In this document: piece by piece, positions 7,251 to 31,033 of the stretch
How positions within the stretch are numbered: the first letter of the stretch is position 1
How the letters are laid out: the number at the start of each line of letters is the position of its first letter
Source of the DNA: Pseudomonadota bacterium
GTDB taxonomy: Bacteria; Pseudomonadota; Gammaproteobacteria; Burkholderiales; Rhodocyclaceae
Assembly: GCA_963205435.1 (NCBI GenBank)
Contig: CAUJIV010000018.1
Location: forward strand, 1 to 55,062
Length of the DNA stretch: 55,062 nucleotides
Direction of reading: 5' to 3'
Translations under genes and position numbers: made by a program
The notes under the pieces: model-generated
What the model was told of the DNA's origin: nothing
Seen by the model: the letters and a program-made list of their open reading frames with translations, nothing else
Databases searched by the model: none

Positions 7251-7327
7251 GTTGTTCGGGTCTCTCCATGGGGGTGGGTTATTATAGCCACTTGCCGTCG
7301 CACCCCTTCCCAGCTCCCCGCCAGACC

Positions 7328-8323
7328 ATGCGCCGGATATCCCGCCTGATCCTCCTGCTGCTCGGCGCCGCGCTCCTGCTGTTTGCCGTGCTGATTCAGT
7401 TTGCCGTCACGGCAGTCGACCTTCCGCGCAGCCCGCTCGACTTCGACATCCGGCCGGGCAGCAGCCTGGCAAGCGCCTCGCGCCAGATCGAGGAGGCCGG
7501 CGTCGGCATGCCCGCCTGGCGCTTCACCCTGCTGGCGCGGCTGCTGGGCAAGTCAGGCCAGATCAAGGCCGGCAGCTACGAGGTGGCGCGTGGCATCACA
7601 CCCTTCGGGTTGCTGGAAAAGCTGACGCGCGGCGATGTCAGCCAGGCGGAGCTGACCCTGATCGAGGGTTGGACCTTCCGCCAGTTTCGCGCCGCGCTCG
7701 ACGCGCATCCCGACCTCCGCCACGACACGCGGGAATGGACCGAGGCGCGCATCATGGCGGAATTGGGCGCGACGGGACCGGCCGAGGGGCGCTTCTTTCC
7801 CGACACCTATCTCTTCGCCCGCGGCAGCGCGGACCTGCAGATCCTGCGGCGCGCCCTCGAGCAGATGGAGCAGATCGTGCAGCGGGAATGGGAAGCGCGC
7901 GACGAGGGCCTGCCGTATGCATCGCCCAGGGACGCGCTGATCATGGCTTCCCTCATCGAGAAGGAGACCGGGCAGGCCGGCGATCGCGCGCAGATCGCCT
8001 CGGTATTCGTCAATCGCCTGAGAAGAGGCATGCTGCTGCAAACCGATCCGAGCGTGATCTACGGACTCGGCCTCCAGTTCGACGGCAATTTGCGCAAGCG
8101 CGACCTGCTCGCCGACGGCCCTTACAATACCTATACGCGCGCCGGCATGCCGCCGGGGCCGATCGCCATGCCCGGCCTCGCCTCAATCCAGGCCGCGCTG
8201 CATCCGGCCCGGACCGATTTGCTGTATTTCGTCGCCCGCGGCGACGGCTCCAGCCAATTCTCGCGAACGCTCGACGAGCACAATCGCGCCGTCGCCCGAT
8301 ACCAGCTACGCAGGGGAAATTGA
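7328..8323 (+). CDS. mltG: Endolytic murein transglycosylase MltG
   Basis: 331 residues: one N-terminal membrane helix (about 5-25), a LysM-like region and the YceG catalytic domain. The catalytic Glu lies in ASLIEKETG, and the family motifs [10 protein letters not shown] and [18 protein letters not shown] follow. MltG cleaves nascent glycan strands in the periplasm and is thought to set strand length. The ATG at 7328 is preferred because it places the helix at the very N terminus; a start at 7268 would add 20 non-conserved residues. It heads the plus-strand run mltG-tmk-holB-pilZ-tatD-ank, an order common in proteobacteria. Confidence 0.95.
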
Positions 8324-8327
8324 CAGC

Positions 8328-8939
8328 ATGCGCGGAAAGTTCATCACGCTCGAGGGCATCGACGGCGCCGGCAAGAGCACCCATCTCGCCTGGCTGGCGG
8401 AGTTCCTCCGCCGCCAGGGCAAGGACGTGGTCTCCACGCGGGAACCGGGCGGCACGCCGCTCGGCGAGAAATTGCGCGCATTGCTGCTGTCGGAAGACAT
8501 GCACCCGGAAACCGAGACCCTGCTGATGTTCGCCGCCAGGAAGGAGCATGTGGTCAAGGTCATCGAACCAGCCCTCGCCGCCGGGAAATGGGTGATGTCG
8601 GATCGCTTTTCCGATGCCTCCTACGCCTACCAGGGAGGAGGAAGGGGGCTGGCGACCGAGAAGGTGGCAACCCTGGAAGACTGGACGCTGGCCGGTTTCC
8701 GGCCGGATCTGACGCTTTTGTTCGATTTGCCGACTGCGACGGCTGGCATGAGGCTGGCAGGAACTGGTCAAGCGCCGGATCGCTTCGAGCTGGAGGCTGG
8801 AGGTTTCTTCGAACGGGTTCGACAGGCTTATCTGGATCGCGCAAGGCAGGAGCCAAGAAGGATTATGATAGTAGATTCAACAAATAATATAGAAGATATT
8901 CATAGAATTCTTGAAATTAGATTGTTATCTATTTGTTAA
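8328..8939 (+). CDS. tmk: Thymidylate kinase
   Basis: 203 residues converting dTMP to dTDP with ATP. The P-loop GIDGAGKST is at residues 10-18, the TREPGG motif follows, then [16 protein letters not shown] with the DR(Y/F) dTMP-binding motif and lid region. It starts 4 bases after mltG. The last 25 codons and the junction to holB (about 8860-8945) are strikingly AT-rich compared with the rest of the gene. Confidence 0.96.
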
Positions 8940-8941
8940 TA

Positions 8942-9979
8942 ATGATATATACATGGCAGAAAGATATCTGGAAGCGAGTGATCGATCAAATCGATCGACT
9001 GCCTCATGCCCTGCTTCTGTCTGGCCCGGCAGGGGGCGGGAAAAGGGATTTCGCCTATTCCCTGGCCGCAAGACTTTTATGTGAAACGGCGAGCGGTCAT
9101 GCCGAAGCTTGTGGAAGTTGCCCGTCCTGCACCTGGTTTTTTGCCGGAAATCACCCTGATTTCAGGATGATAGAGCCAGGAGACGGTGAATCTCCAGCCG
9201 AGGAGGAGGGGACGGAAGAGGCTGCTTCCTCGCAAAAAAGAAAAACCGATCAAATTCGCATCGGACAGATACGCGAGCTCGACAGTTTTTTCGGAGTTGG
9301 CACCCATCGCCAAGGCTATCGGATCATCCTGCTGAATCCAGCGGAAAACATGAATCAGGCAACGGCCAATGCACTTCTTAAAACACTTGAAGAACCTCCT
9401 CCATCCACTTTGTTTTTGCTTGTAACAAATAGAAAAAGAAAAATCCTGCCTACTTTGCTCAGCCGCTGTCAGATCATCGATTTTCCCAAGCCTGAGCTTG
9501 CGCTTGCCTTGTCCTGGCTGAAGGAAGCCAGAGTACAGCAGGCAGATGCCATGCTGGCGCATGCTTCAGGCATGCCGCTCGAAGCGGCAAAAGCCGCCCA
9601 TCACAACGAGTATTTCGTTGAATTTCATAAAGATATTCAGAAAATCGAGCAGCTGGGAGCGGTCACGATCTCGGCTCGCTGGGATGCCTGGCTGAAAGAG
9701 GGGGGGGCGGTAGTGCTGGATCGCGAAACCCTTGTCGTCTGGCTGCAAAAGTGGGTCTTCGATCTAATATTCATGAAATCCTGCGGGATGACGTTATTCC
9801 ATGCTGGCAAAGCAAAGGAAATCGGCGCCATGTCGGAGCGCAGCCACTTGACGGCCCTGCTGGATTGCTACAATGACCTGCTCAAGATCAGGGCGGTCGC
9901 CCGGCATCCGCTCAATTCGCGCCTGTTCATCGAAGACATGCTGTTTCGTTACGCGCGCACAGCACTGACCATGAGATAG
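8942..9979 (+). CDS. holB: DNA polymerase III delta-prime subunit
   Basis: 345 residues from the ATG at 8942 (MIYTWQKDIW); a TTG at 8933 would overlap tmk. This clamp-loader subunit has an AAA+ fold. Visible are GPAGGGKRD in the Walker A position, a four-Cys zinc site (C-x9-C-x2-C-x2-C around residues 47-63), NALLKTLEEPP and the SRC motif in LLSRCQ. An acidic/lysine insert (EEEGTEEAASSQKRK) separates the zinc region from the core. GC content is lower than in neighbouring genes. Confidence 0.93.
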   Translation: MIYTWQKDIWKRVIDQIDRLPHALLLSGPAGGGKRDFAYSLAARLLCETASGHAEACGSCPSCTWFFAGNHPDFRMIEPGDGESPAEEEGTEEAASSQKRKTDQIRIGQIRELDSFFGVGTHRQGYRIILLNPAENMNQATANALLKTLEEPPPSTLFLLVTNRKRKILPTLLSRCQIIDFPKPELALALSWLKEARVQQADAMLAHASGMPLEAAKAAHHNEYFVEFHKDIQKIEQLGAVTISARWDAWLKEGGAVVLDRETLVVWLQKWVFDLIFMKSCGMTLFHAGKAKEIGAMSERSHLTALLDCYNDLLKIRAVARHPLNSRLFIEDMLFRYARTALTMR

Positions 9980-9983
9980 GATC

Positions 9984-10358
9984 ATGTCCGAGTCCGCAAA
10001 ACCGCAGGCAGCAGCAGCCGTCGCCCGGCCCAGCGTCCTTTCCTTGAATATCAACTCAAGATCGGCGCTCTATGCCGCCTACATGCCGTATCTGAAGCGT
10101 GGCGGAATTTTCGTGCCGACCACCAAGCCCTATGGCATCGGCGACGAAGTCTTCATCCTGCTCTCCCTGATGGATGAGCCTGGAAAGTTGCCCATCGCGG
10201 GCACGGTGGTCTGGGTCACGCCAGGCGAGGCCCAAGGCAACAAGAGCCAGGGAATCGGCATACAATTCAGCAAGGACGAGTCGGGCCAGACGGCAAAGCA
10301 GAAAATCGAGAATCTCCTTGCCGGTTATCCCACCACTCGGCAAACCCATACGATCTGA
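9984..10358 (+). CDS. pilZ: Type IV pilus PilZ protein
   Basis: 124 residues with a single PilZ domain. VLSLNINSRSALYAAYMPYL and RGGIFVPTTKPYGIGDEVF match the PilZ of type IV pilus assembly. As in that subgroup, the RxxxR...(D/N)xSxxG c-di-GMP-binding motif is missing, so it is expected to act through partner proteins (PilB, FimX type) rather than by binding c-di-GMP. The window also carries pilU, so twitching motility or natural uptake is plausible. It begins 4 bases after holB. Confidence 0.92.
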   Translation: MSESAKPQAAAAVARPSVLSLNINSRSALYAAYMPYLKRGGIFVPTTKPYGIGDEVFILLSLMDEPGKLPIAGTVVWVTPGEAQGNKSQGIGIQFSKDESGQTAKQKIENLLAGYPTTRQTHTI

Positions 10359-10370
10359 TTACTCTCCTTG

Positions 10371-11141
10371 ATGCTGGTTGATTCCCACTGCCACCTCGAT
10401 TTTCCAGGGTTGGCGGAAAACATCGATCAAGTCATTGAATCGATGGAAGAGGCCGGAGTTGGCCTGGCTGTTTGCATCGGTGTCAGCCTGGAGCGAATGC
10501 CGGCCTTGATGTCTCTGGTCGAAGATCGTGGAAACCTCTTTGCCACAGTCGGCGTCCATCCTGAGCAGAAAGATTGCCTCGAGCCGGACGAGGAAACCCT
10601 GCTCCGACTGGCCAGCCACCCGAAAGTGATTGGCATCGGCGAAACCGGCCTTGATTATCATTGGCACCCAGAGCAGCCGGAGTGGCAGCGGGAAAGGTTC
10701 CGTACCCACATCCGGGCGGCAAAAAGATCCGCCAAGCCACTCGTCATACACATGCGGAATGCCTCCGAGGACACCTTGCGCATCATGGAAGAAGAGGGCG
10801 CCGGAGAAGCGGGAGGTGTCATGCACTGTTTCACGGAGAGCCTCGACACGGCGCGCAAGGCTCTCGACCTCGGCTTCCACATTTCCTTTTCCGGCATCGT
10901 GACCTTCAGGAACGCGCGTGAAATCAAGGAAGTGGCAAAGGCGATGCCGCTCGAGCGCATCCTCGTCGAGACGGATTCGCCTTATCTTGCGCCCGAGCCG
11001 CATCGCGGCAAGCCCAATCAACCCGCCTATGTCCGCCATGTCGCCGAGGAAATCGCCCGTCTCAAGGGAATCGGCCTCGAGGAAGTGGCGCGCGCCACGA
11101 CGGAAAATTTCTGCAGGCTATTCAAGGTAAGCCCGCAATGA
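10371..11141 (+). CDS. TatD family metal-dependent deoxyribonuclease (YcfH type)
   Basis: 256 residues from the ATG at 10371 (MLVDSHCHLDFPGL). The TatD signature HCHLDF gives the first metal ligands; GIGETGLDYH, PLVIHMRNA and LVETDSPYLAPEPHRGKPN give the rest of the two-metal site of a TIM-barrel hydrolase. Relatives have 3'-5' exonuclease activity on DNA. Its position after pilZ in the tmk-holB cluster matches ycfH rather than the tatABCD-linked tatD. The stop overlaps the ankyrin gene start by ATGA. Confidence 0.92.
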   Translation: MLVDSHCHLDFPGLAENIDQVIESMEEAGVGLAVCIGVSLERMPALMSLVEDRGNLFATVGVHPEQKDCLEPDEETLLRLASHPKVIGIGETGLDYHWHPEQPEWQRERFRTHIRAAKRSAKPLVIHMRNASEDTLRIMEEEGAGEAGGVMHCFTESLDTARKALDLGFHISFSGIVTFRNAREIKEVAKAMPLERILVETDSPYLAPEPHRGKPNQPAYVRHVAEEIARLKGIGLEEVARATTENFCRLFKVSPQ

Positions 11142-11803
11142 CGATTTTTTTGCCGACGCTTGCAGGAAGGAAAGCCCGGGCACTCGCGCTCGGCCTATGC
11201 CTCGTTTTCGCGGCAGGTGGCGCCCGGAGCGGAATCTACGAGGACCTGCTGCAGGCCGTCGAGAGCAACGACCTCCAGACGGTATCGTCGATCCTGCAGC
11301 GCGGCATGGACGTCAATACGACCGACAAGGTCGGCAACACGCTGCTCATGCTGGCAGCGCGCGAAGACCATCTGGAACTGGCTCGATTTCTGGCAGGCCA
11401 CCGGGCCAACGTCAGGGCGAGAAACCAGTTCGGCGACACGGCCCTGATGCTGGCAGCGCTGGGCGGCAAGCTGGAGATGACCAGGTTCCTCGTTTTGGCT
11501 GGCGCGGAAATCAACCATCCCGGCTGGAATCCGCTGATCTACGCCGCGTTCGGCGGCCATTCCAAAGTCGTGGACTTTCTCCTGAAGAGCGGCGCCGACG
11601 CCAACGCGCTGGCGCCCAACCAGGCGAGCGCCCTGATGCTGGCGGCGAAGAACGGCCATCTCGAAGTGGTCAGGCTGTTGCTCGGCAAGGGCGCGCGGGC
11701 CGATTACCGTGCGCCGGACGGCGGCAGCGCGCTCAAGTACGCCCTCGAAGGAGGCTACGACAACGTGGCCAAGACGCTCAGGCAGGCTGGAGCCCGCGAC
11801 TGA
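11138..11803 (+). CDS. Exported ankyrin-repeat protein
   Basis: 221 residues. Residues 1-30 form a signal peptide (basic start, hydrophobic LALGLCLVFAAGGA, likely cleavage before GIYEDLL). About five ankyrin repeats follow, with regular G-x-T-x-L-M-L-A-A and V(V/A)xxLLxxGA patterns. Ankyrin proteins mediate protein contacts; no enzyme domain is present, so the partner is unknown. It closes the tmk-holB-pilZ-tatD operon by a four-base overlap and ends 34 bases before the dif site. Similar small exported ankyrin proteins follow tatD in other betaproteobacteria. Confidence 0.85.
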   Translation: MTIFLPTLAGRKARALALGLCLVFAAGGARSGIYEDLLQAVESNDLQTVSSILQRGMDVNTTDKVGNTLLMLAAREDHLELARFLAGHRANVRARNQFGDTALMLAALGGKLEMTRFLVLAGAEINHPGWNPLIYAAFGGHSKVVDFLLKSGADANALAPNQASALMLAAKNGHLEVVRLLLGKGARADYRAPDGGSALKYALEGGYDNVAKTLRQAGARD

Positions 11804-11837: not shown

Positions 11838-11865
11838 ATTACGCATAATGTGTATTATGTTAAAT
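11838..11865 (+). other. dif site: XerC/XerD chromosome dimer resolution site
   Basis: A 28-bp sequence matches the E. coli dif at 24 of 28 positions by direct comparison. The XerC arm reads ATTACGCATAA (11838-11848), the centre TGTGTA (11849-11854) and the XerD arm TTATGTTAAAT (11855-11865); the XerD arm is identical to E. coli and proteobacterial consensus. It lies alone in a 100-base gap between convergent genes, as dif sites usually do. XerCD with FtsK resolve chromosome dimers here at division, so this point should lie in the replication terminus. Confidence 0.92.
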
Positions 11866-11903: not shown

Positions 11904-12329
11904 TCAGTTCATCTCTTCGGGTAGCTTGAACGGCAAGGGAATGACGTCGATGCCCTCTTCGGCCAATTCCTGCGCTTCCCTGGGCGTCGTCTTGCCGCGG
12001 ATGGAACGGGCCTCGGCCTCGCCGTAATGGATGCGGCGCGATTCCTCGGCGAATCTCTCGCCGACATTCTCGGCGCGCAGCACGGCGGTCCTCAGGGCGC
12101 GCAGCACCATATCCGGGCGCCTTCCGGGATCACGAGGCTCTTCGCTTACGCGCTCGGCGCGGCCCTGCGTGCCGATGTTGCAGGGCGTCGGCAGGCGGGT
12201 GATTTCGGAACTGTCGCAAGTCGGGCAACGCACGGTCTGCGCTTCGATCTGCGAAGCGAAACCGCCGTGCGAGGGAAACCAGCCCTCGAAGCGATGCCCT
12301 TCCGGGCAGGAGAGCTCGAGCACGATCAT
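11904..12329 (-). CDS. DUF1178 family protein
   Basis: 141 residues starting MIVLELSCPEGHRFEGWFPS, the standard opening of DUF1178, with a putative zinc ribbon formed by Cys8 and CPTCDSSEITRLPTP. The C-terminal RSIRGKTTPREAQELAEEGI and IPLPF are also family-conserved. Function is unknown. No clear ribosome site precedes the ATG. The gene lies 36 bases downstream of tRNA-Leu on the same strand, so it is probably read from the tRNA promoter at 12,702-12,729. Confidence 0.88.
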   Translation of the reverse strand: MIVLELSCPEGHRFEGWFPSHGGFASQIEAQTVRCPTCDSSEITRLPTPCNIGTQGRAERVSEEPRDPGRRPDMVLRALRTAVLRAENVGERFAEESRRIHYGEAEARSIRGKTTPREAQELAEEGIDVIPLPFKLPEEMN

Positions 12330-12365
12330 GGGAGGTCGGAGATGCGGGCGACGAAAGCTTGCAGT

Positions 12366-12454
12366 TGGTGCCCGGAGCCGGGATCGAACCGGCATGACCG
12401 TTTCCGGTCGAGGGATTTTAAGTCCCTTGCGTCTACCCATTTCGCCATCCGGGC
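12366..12454 (-). tRNA. tRNA-Leu (TAA)
   Basis: Minus-strand cloverleaf beginning GCCCGGATGGCGAAATGGGT with anticodon TAA inside GGGACTTAAAATCCC. It has a long variable arm as expected for leucine, the T-loop GGTTCGATCCCGG, acceptor pairing GCCCGGA/TCCGGGC and an encoded CCA end. Confidence 0.97.
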
Positions 12455-12475
12455 GATCCCATGGCTCGAAAGGTT

Positions 12476-12549
12476 TGGAGGCGGGGGTCGGAATCGAACC
12501 GGCGTAGACGGCTTTGCAGGCCGCTGCATAACCACTTTGCTACCCCGCC
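12476..12549 (-). tRNA. tRNA-Cys (GCA)
   Basis: Minus-strand tRNA beginning GGCGGGGTAGCAAAGTGGTT, anticodon GCA in CCTGCAAAG, T-loop GGTTCGATTCC, acceptor pairing GGCGGGG/CCCCGCC and an encoded CCA. It lies between tRNA-Gly and tRNA-Leu in the same transcript. Confidence 0.97.
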
Positions 12550-12612
12550 GCGGATTTCCGGGCTTGAAGCTAAAAGGGGAAAACGCCGCTGGCCGCGCTT
12601 TCCCCGGGTATC

Positions 12613-12688
12613 TGGAGCGGGAAAGGAGTCTCGAACTCCCGACCTCAACCTTGGCAAGGTTGCGCTCTACCAACTGAGCTATTCCCGC
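12613..12688 (-). tRNA. tRNA-Gly (GCC)
   Basis: Minus-strand tRNA beginning GCGGGAATAGCTCAGTTGGT, anticodon GCC in CCTTGCCAAGG, T-loop GAGTTCGAGACTC, acceptor pairing GCGGGAA/TTCCCGC and an encoded CCA. It is the first tRNA after the promoter. Confidence 0.97.
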
Positions 12689-12746: not shown

Positions 12747-13316
12747 TCAATCGCCTTCCTTCAGGTGCGGCCAGGCCATTTTCAAGTAGTAGGCCATCGA
12801 CCACAGCGTCAGCAGCGTCGCCAGGTAGATCAGCCAGGTGCCGACCCGTTGCGGCTCGAACCAGGGCAGCGGATCGTGATAGAGCAGCATCGGGATCGCC
12901 ACCATCTGGCTGGTGGTCTTCACCTTGCCGACGAAGGAGACGGCGACGCTGCGCGCCGCGCCGATCTTGGCCATCCACTCGCGCAGCGCGGAGATGGTGA
13001 TTTCGCGACCGATGATGATGAAGGCGACGATCGCGTCCACCCTGCCCAACTGCACCAGCATGATCAGCGCGGCGGCGACCATCAGCTTGTCGGCGACCGG
13101 ATCGAGGAAGGCGCCGAAGGCGGAGGACTGCCGCAGCACGCGGGCCAGGTAGCCGTCGAGCCAGTCGGTCAGCGCGGCGATGATGAAGATCAGCGTCGCC
13201 ACCAGGTTCTGCCGGTGGCCTGCCAGCCAATTGTGGTCCAGATAGAAGACGCCGACGAAGAGCGGGATCAGCAGGATGCGGCCCCAGGTCAGCAAGTTGG
13301 GAATGGTGTTCGGCAT
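12747..13316 (-). CDS. pgsA: CDP-diacylglycerol-glycerol-3-phosphate 3-phosphatidyltransferase
   Basis: 189-residue inner-membrane enzyme making phosphatidylglycerol phosphate. It has the CDP-alcohol phosphatidyltransferase signature D-x2-D-G-x2-A-R-x8-G-x3-D-x3-D, seen as DWLDGYLAR followed by AFGAFLDPVAD around residues 50-75. NTIPNLLTWGRILLIP at the N terminus is typical, and four to five hydrophobic helices are visible. It is read just downstream of uvrC. Confidence 0.95.
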   Translation of the reverse strand: MPNTIPNLLTWGRILLIPLFVGVFYLDHNWLAGHRQNLVATLIFIIAALTDWLDGYLARVLRQSSAFGAFLDPVADKLMVAAALIMLVQLGRVDAIVAFIIIGREITISALREWMAKIGAARSVAVSFVGKVKTTSQMVAIPMLLYHDPLPWFEPQRVGTWLIYLATLLTLWSMAYYLKMAWPHLKEGD

Positions 13317-13328
13317 CGGCGTGCGCGC

Positions 13329-15131
13329 TCAATGCAGGTGATTGTAGATCGCTTCGGCCAGCTTGCGGCTGACGCCCTCGACGCGGCACAGATCCTCGAG
13401 CGTCGCCGCGCGCACGCCCTGCAGGCCGCCGAACTGCGCCAGCAGCCGCCGGCGCCGGGCCGGGCCGATGCCGGGCACGTCATCCAGGCTGGAGCGTGTG
13501 CGCGCCCGGGCGCGCTGGGCGCGGTGTCCGGCGATGGCGAAGCGGTGCGCCTCGTCGCGGATCTGCTGCACCAGATGCAGCGCGGGATCGTCTGCGGCCA
13601 GCTGCAGCGGCGCGTCCGTCCCGGGCAGCAGCAGGCTCTCCAGCCCCGGCTTGCGCCCCTCCCCCTTGGCCACGCCGACCGCGGGGATGTCGGCCAGCCC
13701 GGCCTCGGCGAGGATGGCCCGCGCCGCCGCGACCTGCCCCTTGCCGCCGTCGATGAGGATCAGGTCCGGCCGCACGCCCTCCCCCGCCGCGACCTTCTCG
13801 TAGCGCCGCTCGAGCGCCTGGCGCATCGCCGCGTAGTCATCGCCCGGCGTGATACCGCCGATGTTGTAGCGGCGGTACTCCCCCTTCTTCATGGCCCCCT
13901 CGGCACAGACGACGCAGGAAGCGACCGTCGCCTCGCCCAGGGTGTGGCTGATGTCGAAGCACTCGATGCGATGCAGCGGCTCGGCGATGCCGAGGGCTTG
14001 CCGCAGCCGCTCGAGGCGGCCGGCGGCGCTCGCCGAAGTCATTGCCCGCGCATCGAGGGCCAGCCGCGCGTTGTGCTCGGCCATGGCCAGCCAGGCGCGT
14101 TCCTTTTCCCGGCGCGGGCGCTGCAGGGCGACGGCGTGGCCGGCCAGCCCGGCCAGCGCCTGCTCGCTGCCGGCCTGGGGCTCGAGGTTGAGCAGCACCC
14201 GCGGCGGCGCCGGATGGCCGGAGTAATGCTGCTCGAGGAAGGCGGACAAGGCCTCTTCCTCGCTGCTGTCCTGCGCGTTTTGCGGGAAATGGGCCTTGTC
14301 GCCGAGGTGACGGCCGCCGCGCACCATGGCGTGGTTGACGACGATCTGGCCGCGGGCGGCGGCGACGACGACGATGTCGACGTCCTCGTCGCGGGCGCTC
14401 TCGACATACTGCCGGTGCAGCACCTTCTGCAGCGAGCGGATCTGGTCGCGCAGCGCGGCCGCCTTCTCGAAGCGCAGCTGCCCGGCCTCGGCCTGCATGG
14501 CCGCGGTCAGCCGGTCGATGACCTCGCCGTGCCGGCCGCCGAGGAACAGCTCGGCGAGGCGCACGCTGGCGGCGTAGTCCTCGGGCGAGACGAAGCCGAC
14601 GCAGGGCGCGCTGCAGCGGCCGATCTGGTGCAGCAGGCAGGGTCGCGAGCGGTTCTGGAACACCGTATCGTCGCAGGTGCGCAGAAGAAAGATGCGCTGC
14701 AGCAGCTGGATGCTCTCACGCACCGCCTGGGCGTTGGGAAAGGGGCCGAAATAGCGCGCGCCCTTCTCGAAGGGGCCGCGATGGAAGGCGATGCGCGGGC
14801 TGGCGTCGGCCGTCAGCACGATATAGGGGTAGGACTTGTCGTCGCGGAAGAGGATGTTGTACTTGGGCGCCAGGCGCTTGATCAGGTTGTTCTCGAGCAG
14901 CAGCGCCTCGGCCTCGGAGCGCGTCACGGTGACTTCGACGGCGGCGACCTGGGCGACCATCAGGCGGATGCGCGGGCTCAGGTCGGACTTGCGAAAATAG
15001 GAGGCGACGCGCTTCTTCAGCGCCTTGGCCTTGCCGACGTAGAGCACCCGCCCCTCGGCGTCGAGCATGCGATACACCCCGGGCTCCTCGGGCAGCGAGC
15101 GGATCAACGCCTGGCTGTCGAACGCGCTCAT
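13329..15131 (-). CDS. uvrC: UvrABC system protein C
   Basis: 600 residues, the usual length. An N-terminal GIY-YIG nuclease (GVYRMLDAEGRVLYVGKAKAL, about 18-38) makes the 3' incision, a UVR domain sits near 205-240, an RNase H-like nuclease (FDISHTLGEATVASCVV and DLILIDGGKGQV) makes the 5' incision, and C-terminal HhH motifs (DDVPGIGPARRRRLL and VEGVSRKLAEAIY) bind DNA. The start overlaps the stop of the uracil-DNA glycosylase gene upstream (ATGA), which couples two repair genes. Confidence 0.97.
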   Translation of the reverse strand: MSAFDSQALIRSLPEEPGVYRMLDAEGRVLYVGKAKALKKRVASYFRKSDLSPRIRLMVAQVAAVEVTVTRSEAEALLLENNLIKRLAPKYNILFRDDKSYPYIVLTADASPRIAFHRGPFEKGARYFGPFPNAQAVRESIQLLQRIFLLRTCDDTVFQNRSRPCLLHQIGRCSAPCVGFVSPEDYAASVRLAELFLGGRHGEVIDRLTAAMQAEAGQLRFEKAAALRDQIRSLQKVLHRQYVESARDEDVDIVVVAAARGQIVVNHAMVRGGRHLGDKAHFPQNAQDSSEEEALSAFLEQHYSGHPAPPRVLLNLEPQAGSEQALAGLAGHAVALQRPRREKERAWLAMAEHNARLALDARAMTSASAAGRLERLRQALGIAEPLHRIECFDISHTLGEATVASCVVCAEGAMKKGEYRRYNIGGITPGDDYAAMRQALERRYEKVAAGEGVRPDLILIDGGKGQVAAARAILAEAGLADIPAVGVAKGEGRKPGLESLLLPGTDAPLQLAADDPALHLVQQIRDEAHRFAIAGHRAQRARARTRSSLDDVPGIGPARRRRLLAQFGGLQGVRAATLEDLCRVEGVSRKLAEAIYNHLH

Positions 15132-15766
15132 GGCGCGAGATCGGCGCGGATGGCGTCGAAGACGGCGTGGAAGGCCGCCTCGGTGAGGCGCCCGGTCTGC
15201 GTGTTGTAGCGGCTGCAGTGGTAGCTGTCGTGCAGGATGCGGCCGTCCGGCAGCCGGTGGCGCGCGCCATGCGAGAATTTCCATTGGCTGCGCCGCAGCG
15301 TCAGCGCCTGCAGCACGGCCTCGTGCGCCACCAGGCCGAGGGCGAGGATGACTTTGGCCTGAGGCGCCGCCGCCAGTTCGCCGGCGAGGTGGCGGTTGCA
15401 GGTCCGGATCTCTTCCCTTTCCGGCTTGTTCTGCGGCGGCACGCACTTGACGGCATTGGTGATGCGGCAACCGCTCAGCCGCAGCCCGTCATCTGGGGCG
15501 ACGGATTGCGGCCGGCTGGCGAAGCCGTAGCGGTGCAGGGTCGCATACAGCAGCCGGCCGGCATGGTCGCCGGTAAACGGCCGGCCGCTGCGATTGGCGC
15601 CGTGGTAGCCGGGCGCCAGGCCGACGATGAGCAGGCGCGCGCGCGGGTCGCCGAAGGGCGGCACCGGGCGGGCGTGGTAGCCAGGATGCGCGCGGCGGCA
15701 TTCTTCGAGATAGGCCGCCAGCCGCGGACAGAGGCGGCACTCCTCGAGCGGCGCGTCCGGAGCCAC
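15128..15766 (-). CDS. Family 5 uracil-DNA glycosylase (UDGb type)
   Basis: 212 residues. The motif GLAPGYHGANRSGRPFTGD (about 49-67) is the family 5 active-site signature, and the clustered Cys residues (Cys10, Cys13 and later Cys) fit the [4Fe-4S] cluster of this family. It removes uracil and some deaminated purines from DNA. The second motif appears as HDSYHCSRYNTQTGRLT. The gene overlaps uvrC by four bases, so base excision and nucleotide excision functions share a transcript here. Confidence 0.92.
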   Translation of the reverse strand: MAPDAPLEECRLCPRLAAYLEECRRAHPGYHARPVPPFGDPRARLLIVGLAPGYHGANRSGRPFTGDHAGRLLYATLHRYGFASRPQSVAPDDGLRLSGCRITNAVKCVPPQNKPEREEIRTCNRHLAGELAAAPQAKVILALGLVAHEAVLQALTLRRSQWKFSHGARHRLPDGRILHDSYHCSRYNTQTGRLTEAAFHAVFDAIRADLAP

Positions 15767-23255: not shown

Positions 23256-23513
23256 TTACCGAAAATTCAGCAGATAAGCACGCACGGCGGCGGCATCGAG
23301 GTAATAGTGGCACAGCTCGGTCTCGTCGCCGGCCACTACCGGCACGCGCTCGCCGTAGGCCTGCCGGTGCCCGGCATCAGCGTCGACGTCGACCAACTCG
23401 ATGTCGGCGCCCTGCTCCTCGCAGATCGGCCGCAGGTCGGCGAGCAGGTCCTCGCAGAGGTGGCAGTCCCGGCGGACATAGACCGTCAGCCGGGCCCGCC
23501 TACTTGTCGCCAT
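23256..23513 (-). CDS. Glutaredoxin-like protein
   Basis: 85 residues with a thioredoxin fold. [16 protein letters not shown] carries a CHLC active-site pair, then [21 protein letters not shown] with the cis-proline segment. It is shorter than classical glutaredoxin and belongs to the DUF836-like group. The gene begins inside the last 14 bases of degP and is followed by lepA, so it sits in an envelope-stress operon. It could reduce a partner in that pathway, but this is inference. Confidence 0.85.
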
Positions 23514-26887: not shown

Positions 26888-27487
26888 TCACCATCGCTTG
26901 TCGGGCGCCGTGTCGAGCAGCGGCCGCAGCTTTTCGGCCACCGCCTCGCGCGCGCGGAAAATGCGCGAACGCACAGTGCCGATCGGACAATTCATCATTC
27001 TTGCGATATCCTCGTAGCTCATTCCCTCGATCTCGCGCAGCGTGATGGCCGTCCGCAAGTCCTCGGGCAGGGCCGCCATCGCCGCATTCACGGTCTCGGC
27101 GATCTCCTTCGAAAAGAGCATGCGCTCCGGCGTGTTGATGTCACGCAGCAACTCGCCGTCGTCGAAGCCCTCCGCCTCTTCCGCGTCGAATTCCGTCCGC
27201 GTCGGCGCCCGACGACCCTGTGACACCAGAAAATTTTTCGCCGTGTTGATGCCGATCCGGTAGAGCCAGGTATAGAAGGCGCTGTCGCCGCGGAAACTGC
27301 CCAGGGCCCGGTAGGCCTTGATGAAAGTCTCCTGCGCCACGTCCTCGACTTCCGCCGGATCGCGTATCAGCCGCGACAGCAGCCTGGCCAGCTTGCGCTG
27401 GTATTTCGAGACGAGCAGCCCGAAGGCCTGCTGGTCGCCGTGCTGGGCGCGGACAACCAGTTGCTGGTCTACTTCACGGTCTCCCAT
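26888..27487 (-). CDS. rpoE: RNA polymerase sigma-E factor
   Basis: 199 residues, an extracytoplasmic-function sigma factor. Region 2 reads DVAQETFIKAYRALGSFRGD with FYTWLYRIGINTAKNFL; region 4 reads LPEDLRTAITLREIEGMSYE with a helix-turn-helix and GTVRSRIFRAREAV. It directs the envelope-stress response. The start MGDREVDQQL at 27487 fits betaproteobacterial RpoE; no strong ribosome site is seen. A possible sigma-E promoter lies about 100 bases upstream. Confidence 0.95.
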   Translation of the reverse strand: MGDREVDQQLVVRAQHGDQQAFGLLVSKYQRKLARLLSRLIRDPAEVEDVAQETFIKAYRALGSFRGDSAFYTWLYRIGINTAKNFLVSQGRRAPTRTEFDAEEAEGFDDGELLRDINTPERMLFSKEIAETVNAAMAALPEDLRTAITLREIEGMSYEDIARMMNCPIGTVRSRIFRAREAVAEKLRPLLDTAPDKRW

Positions 27488-27782: not shown

Positions 27783-29360
27783 GTGCAGACATTCGACGTC
27801 CTCATCATCGGCAGTGGCCTGGCCGGCCAATCCCTCGCCCTGCGCCTGGCCGGCCAGCGCAAGGTGGCGCTGGTCACCAAGGGCGCGCTCGAGGACAGCG
27901 CCAGCAGCCGCGCCCAAGGCGGCATCGCCGCCGCCCTCGACGACGCCGACACGATCGAGGCGCACATCCGGGACACGCTGGTGGCGGGCGCCGGCCTGTG
28001 CAGCCGCCGCGCCACCCGCTTCGTCGTCGAGCGAGGCAAGCAGGCCATCGACTGGCTGATCCGCCAGGGCGTGCCGTTCACCCGCGACGCCGACGGCGCC
28101 GGCTACCACCTGACGCGCGAAGGCGGCCACAGCCACCGCCGCGTCATCCACGTCGCCGACGCCACCGGCCTGGCGGTGCAGGACACCCTGACGGAGAAAC
28201 TGCGCGCCCATCCGAACATCACGGTGTTCGAGCAGCACATCGCCATCGACCTGATCAGCGGCGCCAAATTCGCCCTCGGCGACGCCGGCTGCCACGGCGC
28301 CTACGTCCTCGACAAGCGGACCGACCGCGTGGAGACCTTCTGCGCGCCGCACACCGCGCTGTGTACCGGCGGCACGGGCAAGGTCTATCTCTACACCACC
28401 AACCCGGACACGGCGACCGGCGACGGCATCGCCATGGCCTGGCGCGCCGGTTGCGCGGTGGCCAACATGGAGTTCATCCAGTTCCACCCCACCTGCCTCT
28501 ACCACCCGCACGCCAAGTCCTTCCTCATCACCGAGGCGATGCGCGGGGAAGGCGGCATCCTGCGCCTGCCCGGTGGCGAGCGCTTCATGCCGGAGCACGA
28601 TCCGCGCGCGGAACTGGCGCCGCGCGACATCGTCGCACGGGCAATCGACTCCGAAATGAAGAAGCGCGGCCTCGACTGCGTCTATCTCGACATGACCCAT
28701 CTGCCGGCCGCTTTCCTGATGGAGCATTTTCCCAACATCCACGCCCGCTGCCTCGAACTGGGCATCGACATCGCGCGCCAGCCGATTCCCGTCGTGCCGG
28801 CGGCGCACTACTCCTGCGGCGGCGTCGTCGCCGACCTGCGCGCGCGCACGGCCCTGCCGGGGCTGTACGCGGTCGGCGAGACGGCCTTCACCGGCCTGCA
28901 CGGGGCCAACCGCCTGGCCAGCAACTCGCTGCTCGAGTGCCTGGTCTTCTCCGCCGCCGCGGCCGACGACATCCTCGCCTCGCCGCGGCGGCCGCTGCCG
29001 GCTCTGCCGGCCTGGGACGAGAGCCGTGTCACCGACGCTGACGAGGAGATCGTCATCTCGCACAACTGGGAGGAATTGCGCCGCTTCATGTGGGACTATG
29101 TCGGCATCGTGCGCACCAGCAAGCGCCTCGAGCGCGCCCGCCACCGCATCCGCCTGCTGGAGCGCGAGATCGACGAGTACTACGCCAACTTCCGCGTCAG
29201 CAACGACCTGATCGAGTTGCGCAACCTGGTCCTCACCGCCGACCTCATCGTGCGCTGCGCGCAGCGGCGGCGGGAGAGCCGCGGCCTGCATGCCAGCCGC
29301 GATTACCCGGCCAGCCTGGCGGTCGCCCGCAACACCGTGCTGCGCAACCGCCTCAGATAG
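27783..29360 (+). CDS. nadB: L-aspartate oxidase
   Basis: 525-residue flavoprotein that oxidises aspartate to iminoaspartate, the first step of NAD synthesis; fumarate can act as acceptor without oxygen. FAD-binding motif [15 protein letters not shown] at the N terminus, [25 protein letters not shown], and [16 protein letters not shown] near residue 380. The start codon is GTG at 27783. A TATCAT -10-like element lies at 27748-27753. It is divergent from rpoE and its end overlaps the convergent ygfX-like gene by 8 bases. Confidence 0.95.
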
Positions 29361-29800: not shown

Positions 29801-31033
29801 TCAGCAGCGCCGGAAGACCAGCGTGCCGTTGGTGCCGCCGAAGCCGAAGTTGTTCTTCAGGGCGATGTCGATGCGCATCGGCCGCGCCGTGTTGGCGCAA
29901 TAGTCGAGGTCGCACTCCGGGTCCGGCTCGTGCAGGTTGATCGTCGGCGGCGAGACCTGGTGGTGCACCGCCAGCGCCGTCAGCGCCGACTCGAGTCCGC
30001 CGGCGCCGCCGAGCAGGTGCCCCGTCATCGACTTGGTGGAGTTCACCACCAGATTGCGGGCGGCCTCGCCGAAGGCCAGCTTGATGGCGTCGGTCTCGTT
30101 CTTGTCGCCGAGCGGCGTCGATGTGCCGTGGGCGTTCAGGTAGTGCACCTCGTCCGCATTGACGCCGGCGTCGCGCAGGGCGTTCACCATGCTGCGCCGC
30201 GGCCCGTCGGTGTCCGGCGCGGTCATGTGGAAGGCGTCGCCGCTCATGCCGAAGCCGGCCAGCTCGGCATAGACGCGGGCACCGCGGCGCCTGGCGTGCT
30301 CGTACTCCTCGAGCACCAGCACGCCGGCGCCCTCGCCCAGCACGAAGCCGTCGCGTCCCTTGTCCCACGGGCGGCTGGCGCTGGCCGGGTCGTCGTTGCG
30401 CGTCGACAGCGCCTGCGCCGAGGCGAAGCCGCCGATGGCGAGCGGCGTCACCGTCGATTCGGCGCCGCCGCAGACCATGACATCGGCATCGCCGTACTGG
30501 ATCAGGCGGTAACCGCTGCCGATGGCGTGCAGGCCGGTGGTGCAGGCGGTCACCACGGCGAGATTCGGCCCCTTCAGGCCGAACATGATCGAGAGGTTCC
30601 CCGAGATCATGTTGATGATGGTGCCGGGGATGAAGAAAGGCGAGATCTTGCGCGGCCCGCCGGCGAGATAGTCGTTGTGGGTGTCCTCGATCATCGGCAG
30701 GCCGCCGATGCCCGAGCCGATGTTGACGCCGATGCGCTCGGCGTTGTCCGGCGTCACCTCGAGGCCGGCGTCGCGGATCGCCTGGATACCGGCCGCCATG
30801 CCGTAATGGATGAAGGCGTCCATGCGGCGCGCCTCCTTCGGCGACAGGTAGGCGCCGATGTCGAAGCCCTTCACTTCGCCGGCCATGCGCGACTTGAAGG
30901 CCGAGGCGTCGAAGCGGGTGATCGGGCCGATGCCATTGCGCCCGGCAACGATGCCCTCCCAGGCCTCCGCCACCGTGTTGCCGACGGGCGAGACAATGCC
31001 GAGTCCGGTGACGACTACCCTGCGGCGTGCCAC
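29801..31033 (-). CDS. fabF: Beta-ketoacyl-ACP synthase II
   Basis: 410 residues. Condensing enzyme that elongates acyl-ACP with malonyl-ACP. The thiolase-fold triad is seen as the nucleophile Cys in [12 protein letters not shown], His in [12 protein letters not shown] and His in [14 protein letters not shown]. The start is GTG (31033) with AGGAG upstream. It lies 39 bases after acpP and is probably co-transcribed with it. Confidence 0.96.

Follow-up and report, generated by a model that had tools for sequence, protein, structure and literature searches.

A 28-bp site read as the chromosomal dif of a Rhodocyclaceae bacterium, and a gene neighbourhood around it that recurs in other families of the order

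Does a dif-like string between two convergent genes mark the place where the two replichores of this chromosome meet, and are the essential genes that lie so close to it a peculiarity of this genome? The question was addressed in a window of 55,062 nucleotides, which is the whole of contig C18 (CAUJIV010000018.1) of a draft genome (G000) comprising 2,548,147 bases in 134 contigs and estimated to be 85.43% complete. The host is probably a member of the Rhodocyclaceae near Sulfuritalea, as far as sequence likeness can tell; among the best 80 of 592 PilZ relatives, the closest ones (80–81% identity) came from the MAGs Rhodocyclaceae bacterium QR_Bin.30, Sulfuritalea sp. PRO1, and Betaproteobacteria bacterium EFPC_67. 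We read the 28-mer as the chromosomal dif site of this bacterium, serving XerCD/FtsK dimer resolution at the replichore junction, and put the probability of this reading at about 97%.

The site occupies positions 11838–11865 of the window (ATTACGCATAATGTGTATTATGTTAAAT) and agrees at 24 of 28 positions with what we take to be the E. coli dif sequence, the borders of the arms being likewise those that we presume for E. coli. The half corresponding to the XerC arm (11838–11848, + strand) is the same at 8 of 11 positions, the central hexamer TGTGTA (11849–11854, +) at 5 of 6, and the XerD-arm half (11855–11865, +; TTATGTTAAAT) is identical, so that the differences from E. coli dif lie in the XerC arm and at one spacer base. 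The 28-mer has the canonical dif architecture of two 11-bp arms around a 6-bp spacer, with a conserved XerD arm. The second-best place in the window reached 17/28, and 20 first-order shuffles of the window gave at most 18/28, which bears out the match that the earlier note had proposed at these positions. Betaproteobacterial dif sites, such as that of Thiobacillus denitrificans (ACTTCGCATAATGTATATTATGTTAAAT), have the core CGCATAATGT.TATTATGTTAAAT in common with the site in the window, and lie between genes close to the terminus with a low G+C content, according to the consulted parts of Carnoy and Roten (2009, PMC2731167); these parts concern other species and do not describe the gene neighbourhood found here.

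The site is intergenic and lies between convergent genes, as the earlier note had claimed, and is directly flanked by housekeeping genes, in which it differs from E. coli dif. On its left, six genes (named, like all others in the window, by labels placed on Pfam matches) read rightward toward it over 4.5 kb (7268–11803, all + strand): mltG (YceG-like, 7268–8323, PF02618), tmk for thymidylate kinase (8328–8939, PF02223), holB for DNA polymerase III delta prime (8933–9979, PF13177), pilZ (9984–10358, PF07238), tatD (10368–11141, PF01026), and, directly beside dif, a gene for an ankyrin-repeat protein (ank, 11138–11803, PF12796). The gene directly to the right encodes a DUF1178 protein (11904–12326, − strand, PF06676), with a start that we infer to be at 12326; the listed ORF (11904–12440) overlaps the tRNA-Leu gene. 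It is followed by tRNA-Leu(TAA), tRNA-Cys(GCA), and tRNA-Gly(GCC) (12366–12688, −, ARAGORN), by a pgsA-like gene for a CDP-alcohol phosphatidyltransferase (12747–13316, −, PF01066), and by uvrC (13329–15470, −, PF08459 and others, start uncertain). Altogether, three tRNA genes and 16 Pfam-supported genes, among them an era ORF with GTPase and KH domains, lie on the − strand to the right of dif, up to a sigma factor ORF that starts at 26888, and the first Pfam-supported + strand gene starts at 27783; six overlapping + strand ORFs within this run matched no family in the Pfam scan. Both the rightward mltG-to-ankyrin run and the 15.5-kb leftward run of the earlier note were thus found, the latter approximately at its given length. 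In the window, tmk, holB, pilZ, and tatD (8328–11141) have a low G+C content of 0.52–0.59, as against 0.64–0.74 in the other listed genes, and the same four are AT-rich in same-genus genomes as well.

A dif pattern allowing up to 3 mismatches occurred once in the draft genome and its reversed control did not occur; this count covers an 85%-complete genome, in the missing part of which another copy is possible. A second copy of the motif was accordingly absent from both the window and the draft at this threshold, and single occurrence joins the 24/28 match and the identical XerD arm in the likeness to E. coli dif. The same pattern was matched in 30 of 60 genomes (G000 included), in 29 of these 30 at a single place, and found no match in the other 30, among which are 7 of the 16 genomes of the genus. 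The nine genus members with a match thus stand beside seven that include incomplete drafts. When 200 genomes of the order, again with G000 among them, were searched with a looser pattern that has five free positions, 152 had a match, as against 7 for its reversed control by our own row count; among the matches listed, several genomes had extra and mostly weaker ones. One genome (G053) carries two identical dif sites, both at contig ends (L006, at G053:C5:166–191, and G053:C11:3–28), perhaps the result of a contig break at dif.

Where this site lies on the chromosome can be seen in two single-contig genomes of the same genus (G001 and G002), in which the orthologous dif stands beside the same left and right neighbour genes as in the window and opposite dnaA, here taken as the marker of the origin. 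In G002, DnaA matches best at 473, and dif lies at 1,572,859 of a chromosome of 3,145,360, i.e., 49.99% of its length from dnaA, and in G001, the corresponding positions are 2,871,089 and 1,141,128 of 3,405,959 (49.2%). GC skew and KOPS were profiled over twenty 20-kb stretches from each genome. In G002, nine of the ten stretches before dif had positive skew and seven of the ten beyond it negative skew, and KOPS words were 28 forward and 7 reverse before, 4 forward and 35 reverse after, so that 63 of 74 in the sampled stretches pointed to dif (binomial 2.7e−10). Sorted by replichore, G001 had positive skew in 6/10 and negative skew in 8/10 stretches, with KOPS counts of 27/14 and 12/30 (57 of 83 pointing to dif). 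The change of skew sign and KOPS polarity at dif is therefore clearly visible in G002 and less marked in G001. These results, including the sign change that was looked for at dif and found in the same-genus relatives, support the terminus reading of the earlier note. In relatives of the host, likeness to the E. coli site, on which XerC, XerD, and FtsK act, also takes in terminus position and KOPS convergence.

The same polarity was seen when the comparison was widened beyond the genus to 45 dif loci in 34 families of the order; these loci were chosen by hand from the hits of the two dif patterns, mostly one per family and away from contig ends where possible, and are a non-random sample. Over a span of about 10 kb on either side of dif where the contig allowed it, 210 of 244 KOPS words pointed to dif, 41 loci agreed with this polarity (2 were against it, 2 tied or empty), and the pooled switch point fell at dif within 250 bp. 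This pooled switch bears on the thought that the 28-mer, in a GC-rich genome, could be an AT-rich and palindromic string that resembles dif by chance, for which speak the shortness and intergenic position of the site, intergenic DNA being AT-richer. Against it stand the switch itself, the score of 24/28 where shuffles reached at most 18, and the orthologous sites in the genus; the conservation of the site refutes it, and we regard its probability as negligible.

Taken alone, KOPS and GC skew in the window are equivocal as evidence for dif. The word GGGNAGGG occurs 8 times forward and 10 times reverse, with 12 of 18 pointing to dif, and the best switch point lies at 6.5–7 kb (13 of 18) and not at dif; the positions of such words given in the earlier note exist, but make up only part of these 18. 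The cumulative GC skew has its maximum at 23310, 11.4 kb from dif, and a maximum within a 55-kb contig need not be that of the replicon. Such a distance is not unusual given the values in the consulted parts of Carnoy and Roten (2009, PMC2731167), where the median distance from dif to the skew peak is 7,277 bp and the third quartile 21,445.5 bp. A dif that is genuine and yet does not lie opposite the origin in the host species, either because the chromosome is rearranged or because the contig is misassembled, would be in keeping with these profiles, which do not peak at dif, and with the 85%-complete, 134-contig state of the draft. However, both flanks match the gene order of the genus, and both complete genomes of the genus place the locus opposite dnaA, which leaves rearrangement or misassembly improbable. 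That the replication terminus lies at dif in the window is what these relatives imply for a host whose own genome is a draft of 134 contigs.

The two flanks differ in how closely they resemble those of other genus members: DNA identity between the window and eight genus genomes was 78–82% to the right of dif, in long matches, and 67–74% to the left. Identity was lower on the left in all 10 genome pairs, third codon positions included, two pairs with G010 covering only four right-side genes. A horizontal replacement of the left flank peculiar to the window was considered and rejected, as all 10 pairs behave alike and tmk, holB, pilZ, and tatD are AT-rich in relatives too; an effect of gene class and composition is more likely.

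The components that would act on the site are encoded in the draft genome: a XerD above the curated cut-off (376 bits), a second Xer paralogue (254 bits) that we read as XerC, and FtsK-gamma. KOPS words converging on dif would guide FtsK, which, in a chromosome dimer, would join both copies of dif at the septum; XerD and then XerC would exchange strands across the TGTGTA spacer, turning the dimer into two monomers, and dif would in this way mark the junction of both replichores. XerCD binding, recombination, and activation by FtsK at dif in the window are predictions.

The relatives of the host also show how the site is bordered, and whether it could have come with a mobile element. In all eight genus loci examined, the left cluster stands on the XerC-arm side of dif, and ank lies within about 0.7 kb of it in seven, the exception being G002, in which it is 4.7 kb away, beyond an IS66 transposase. 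To the right of dif, tRNA-Leu, -Cys, and -Gly follow directly in G001, G011, and G015 with no element at dif, inserts separate dif from its right neighbours in G002 and G005, and in G009, G010, and G012, these neighbours sit on another contig. The insert in G002 (L031:17860 to L032:6273 and on; G002:C1 1572859 to about 1581200) comprises about 8.3 kb with genes of filamentous-phage type (protein I/Zot-like, G2P-like replication, ssDNA-binding, regulator) and ends, on the tRNA side, at a degenerate dif-like site that agrees with the pattern at 17 of its 21 positions; of the eight ORFs scanned in this insert, four had no match in either the Pfam or the PHROG library. The insert has the appearance of a Xer-dependent insertion into the orthologous dif locus, and the IS66 and filamentous-phage genes around the G002 site are what sets it apart from the one in the window. 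In G005, about 26 kb lie between dif and the tRNA side (L035:11895 to L036:about 17900, G005:C88), a tyrosine integrase gene coming first, next to dif; this insert showed no second dif-like site, and it may therefore have integrated at the tRNA gene instead of dif.

Phage genes between dif and a degenerate dif-like site, as in G002, are also the ground for asking if the 28-mer belongs to an integrated Xer-exploiting element (an IMEX or a filamentous prophage) and not to the resident chromosome. An integrated element was looked for at dif in the window and none was found. Between dif and tRNA-Leu there is only the DUF1178 gene, which has no match among the PHROGs, and the ankyrin protein matches three PHROGs of unknown function, as is expected of ankyrin repeats; neither adjoining gene thus shows a phage hallmark family. 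No second dif-like site that could enclose element genes was found in the window or elsewhere in the draft genome, and in G001, G011, and G015, this dif is present with no element beside it. We therefore hold a mobile origin of the site to be very improbable. According to the consulted parts of Carnoy and Roten (PMC2731167), mobility genes adjoin about one dif site in four; beside the one in the window, no mobile element was found.

The DUF1178 gene between dif and tRNA-Leu is, compared with G001 and G002, found in the window only, and it was not found in any of the eight other genus genomes searched, six of which are at least 90% complete. Outside the genus, one locus (L145) has the same order as the window, dif-DUF1178-tRNA-Leu-Cys-Gly-pgsA-uvrC, and the gene also lies close to dif in L162 and L136, and adjoins the tRNA cluster in L119. 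Given the same place in L145 and the proximity in L162 and L136, a new insertion at dif was rejected as the source of this gene, and its loss from the other genus members fits better. L145 (CAMAWC010000071.1), with its window-like dif neighbourhood, comes from a MAG titled Bordetella parapertussis, a title that may be wrong.

The earlier note had found it remarkable that essential genes lie so close to the terminus; they do, but they are not peculiar to this genome, the arrangement being shared and apparently inherited. Among the 45 loci outside the genus, 16 (13 families) combine tatD with one or more of mltG, tmk, holB, and ank within 10 kb of dif. The other side of dif carried tRNA-Leu/Cys or pgsA/uvrC in 6 loci, two of which (L119 and L124) have that side only; a lone tRNA-Leu beside dif in L109 was left out of the six, and era was left out of all locus counts. 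At least one conserved side is kept in 15 of 34 families, and neither is in 27 of the 45 loci. By our own estimate, 20 kb make up about 0.6% of a genome of 3.5 Mb, and independent placement would be expected to yield well under one such locus. Inheritance is the simplest reading of a dif neighbourhood shared across the order, as judged from locus counts. An obligate linkage of ank and dif was rejected: among the best 80 of 592 PilZ loci, a dif-like site (≤ 3 mismatches) lies in the stored flank of 10 of the 80, and many with 10 kb downstream have none there, a count from which some may be missing where the flank was short or the dif had diverged.

The orientation of dif itself is less constant. 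Relative to the tatD/ank cluster, it is reversed in L128, L136, L145 (a weak match with 3 mismatches), and L162, with ank close by, and also in two loci of one genus, L047 and L130, where ank is at a distance of about 7 kb. Over these six loci, 31 of 38 KOPS words nonetheless point to dif, L128 being the weakest (6 of 10). Both flanks are present in L136 and swapped relative to dif, and on sequence grounds, it seems that a short dif segment has itself been turned. We favour, with moderate confidence, an ancestral terminus inherited within the order, in which dif lay between clusters reading toward it, namely (fab-)mltG-tmk-holB-pilZ-tatD-ank on one side and tRNA(Leu, Cys, Gly)-pgsA-uvrC-nagZ-pdxJ-recO-era-rnc-lepA on the other, and in several lineages of which dif was inverted with KOPS remaining convergent, as if dif were free to lie either way round and only the polarity of the flanks were constrained. 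The fabF gene lies beyond mltG on the same side in 9 of the 45 loci, and to the right of dif in both the window (29801–31033) and G001, a difference that would be in keeping with an earlier inversion around the terminus.

As such, the site in the window is an ordinary chromosomal dif, and the order-wide neighbourhood is the part worth a second look. The terminus is usually regarded as the most variable part of the chromosome. We found no report of a conserved dif neighbourhood in the literature searched, and the consulted parts of PMC2731167 and PMC3025954 do not describe one, which is no proof that none exists. The loci compared here suggest that a neighbourhood of essential genes can persist around the terminus in many families, with mobile elements inserting beside dif and dif flipping, and they provide a comparative setting for asking what constrains terminus organisation. 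For Rhodocyclaceae drafts of this kind, the dif of the window offers a useful anchor by which contigs can be oriented. The 1-kb bin at dif was below the mean G+C content of its locus in 40 of the 45 order loci, as compared with 24 of 40 control stretches.
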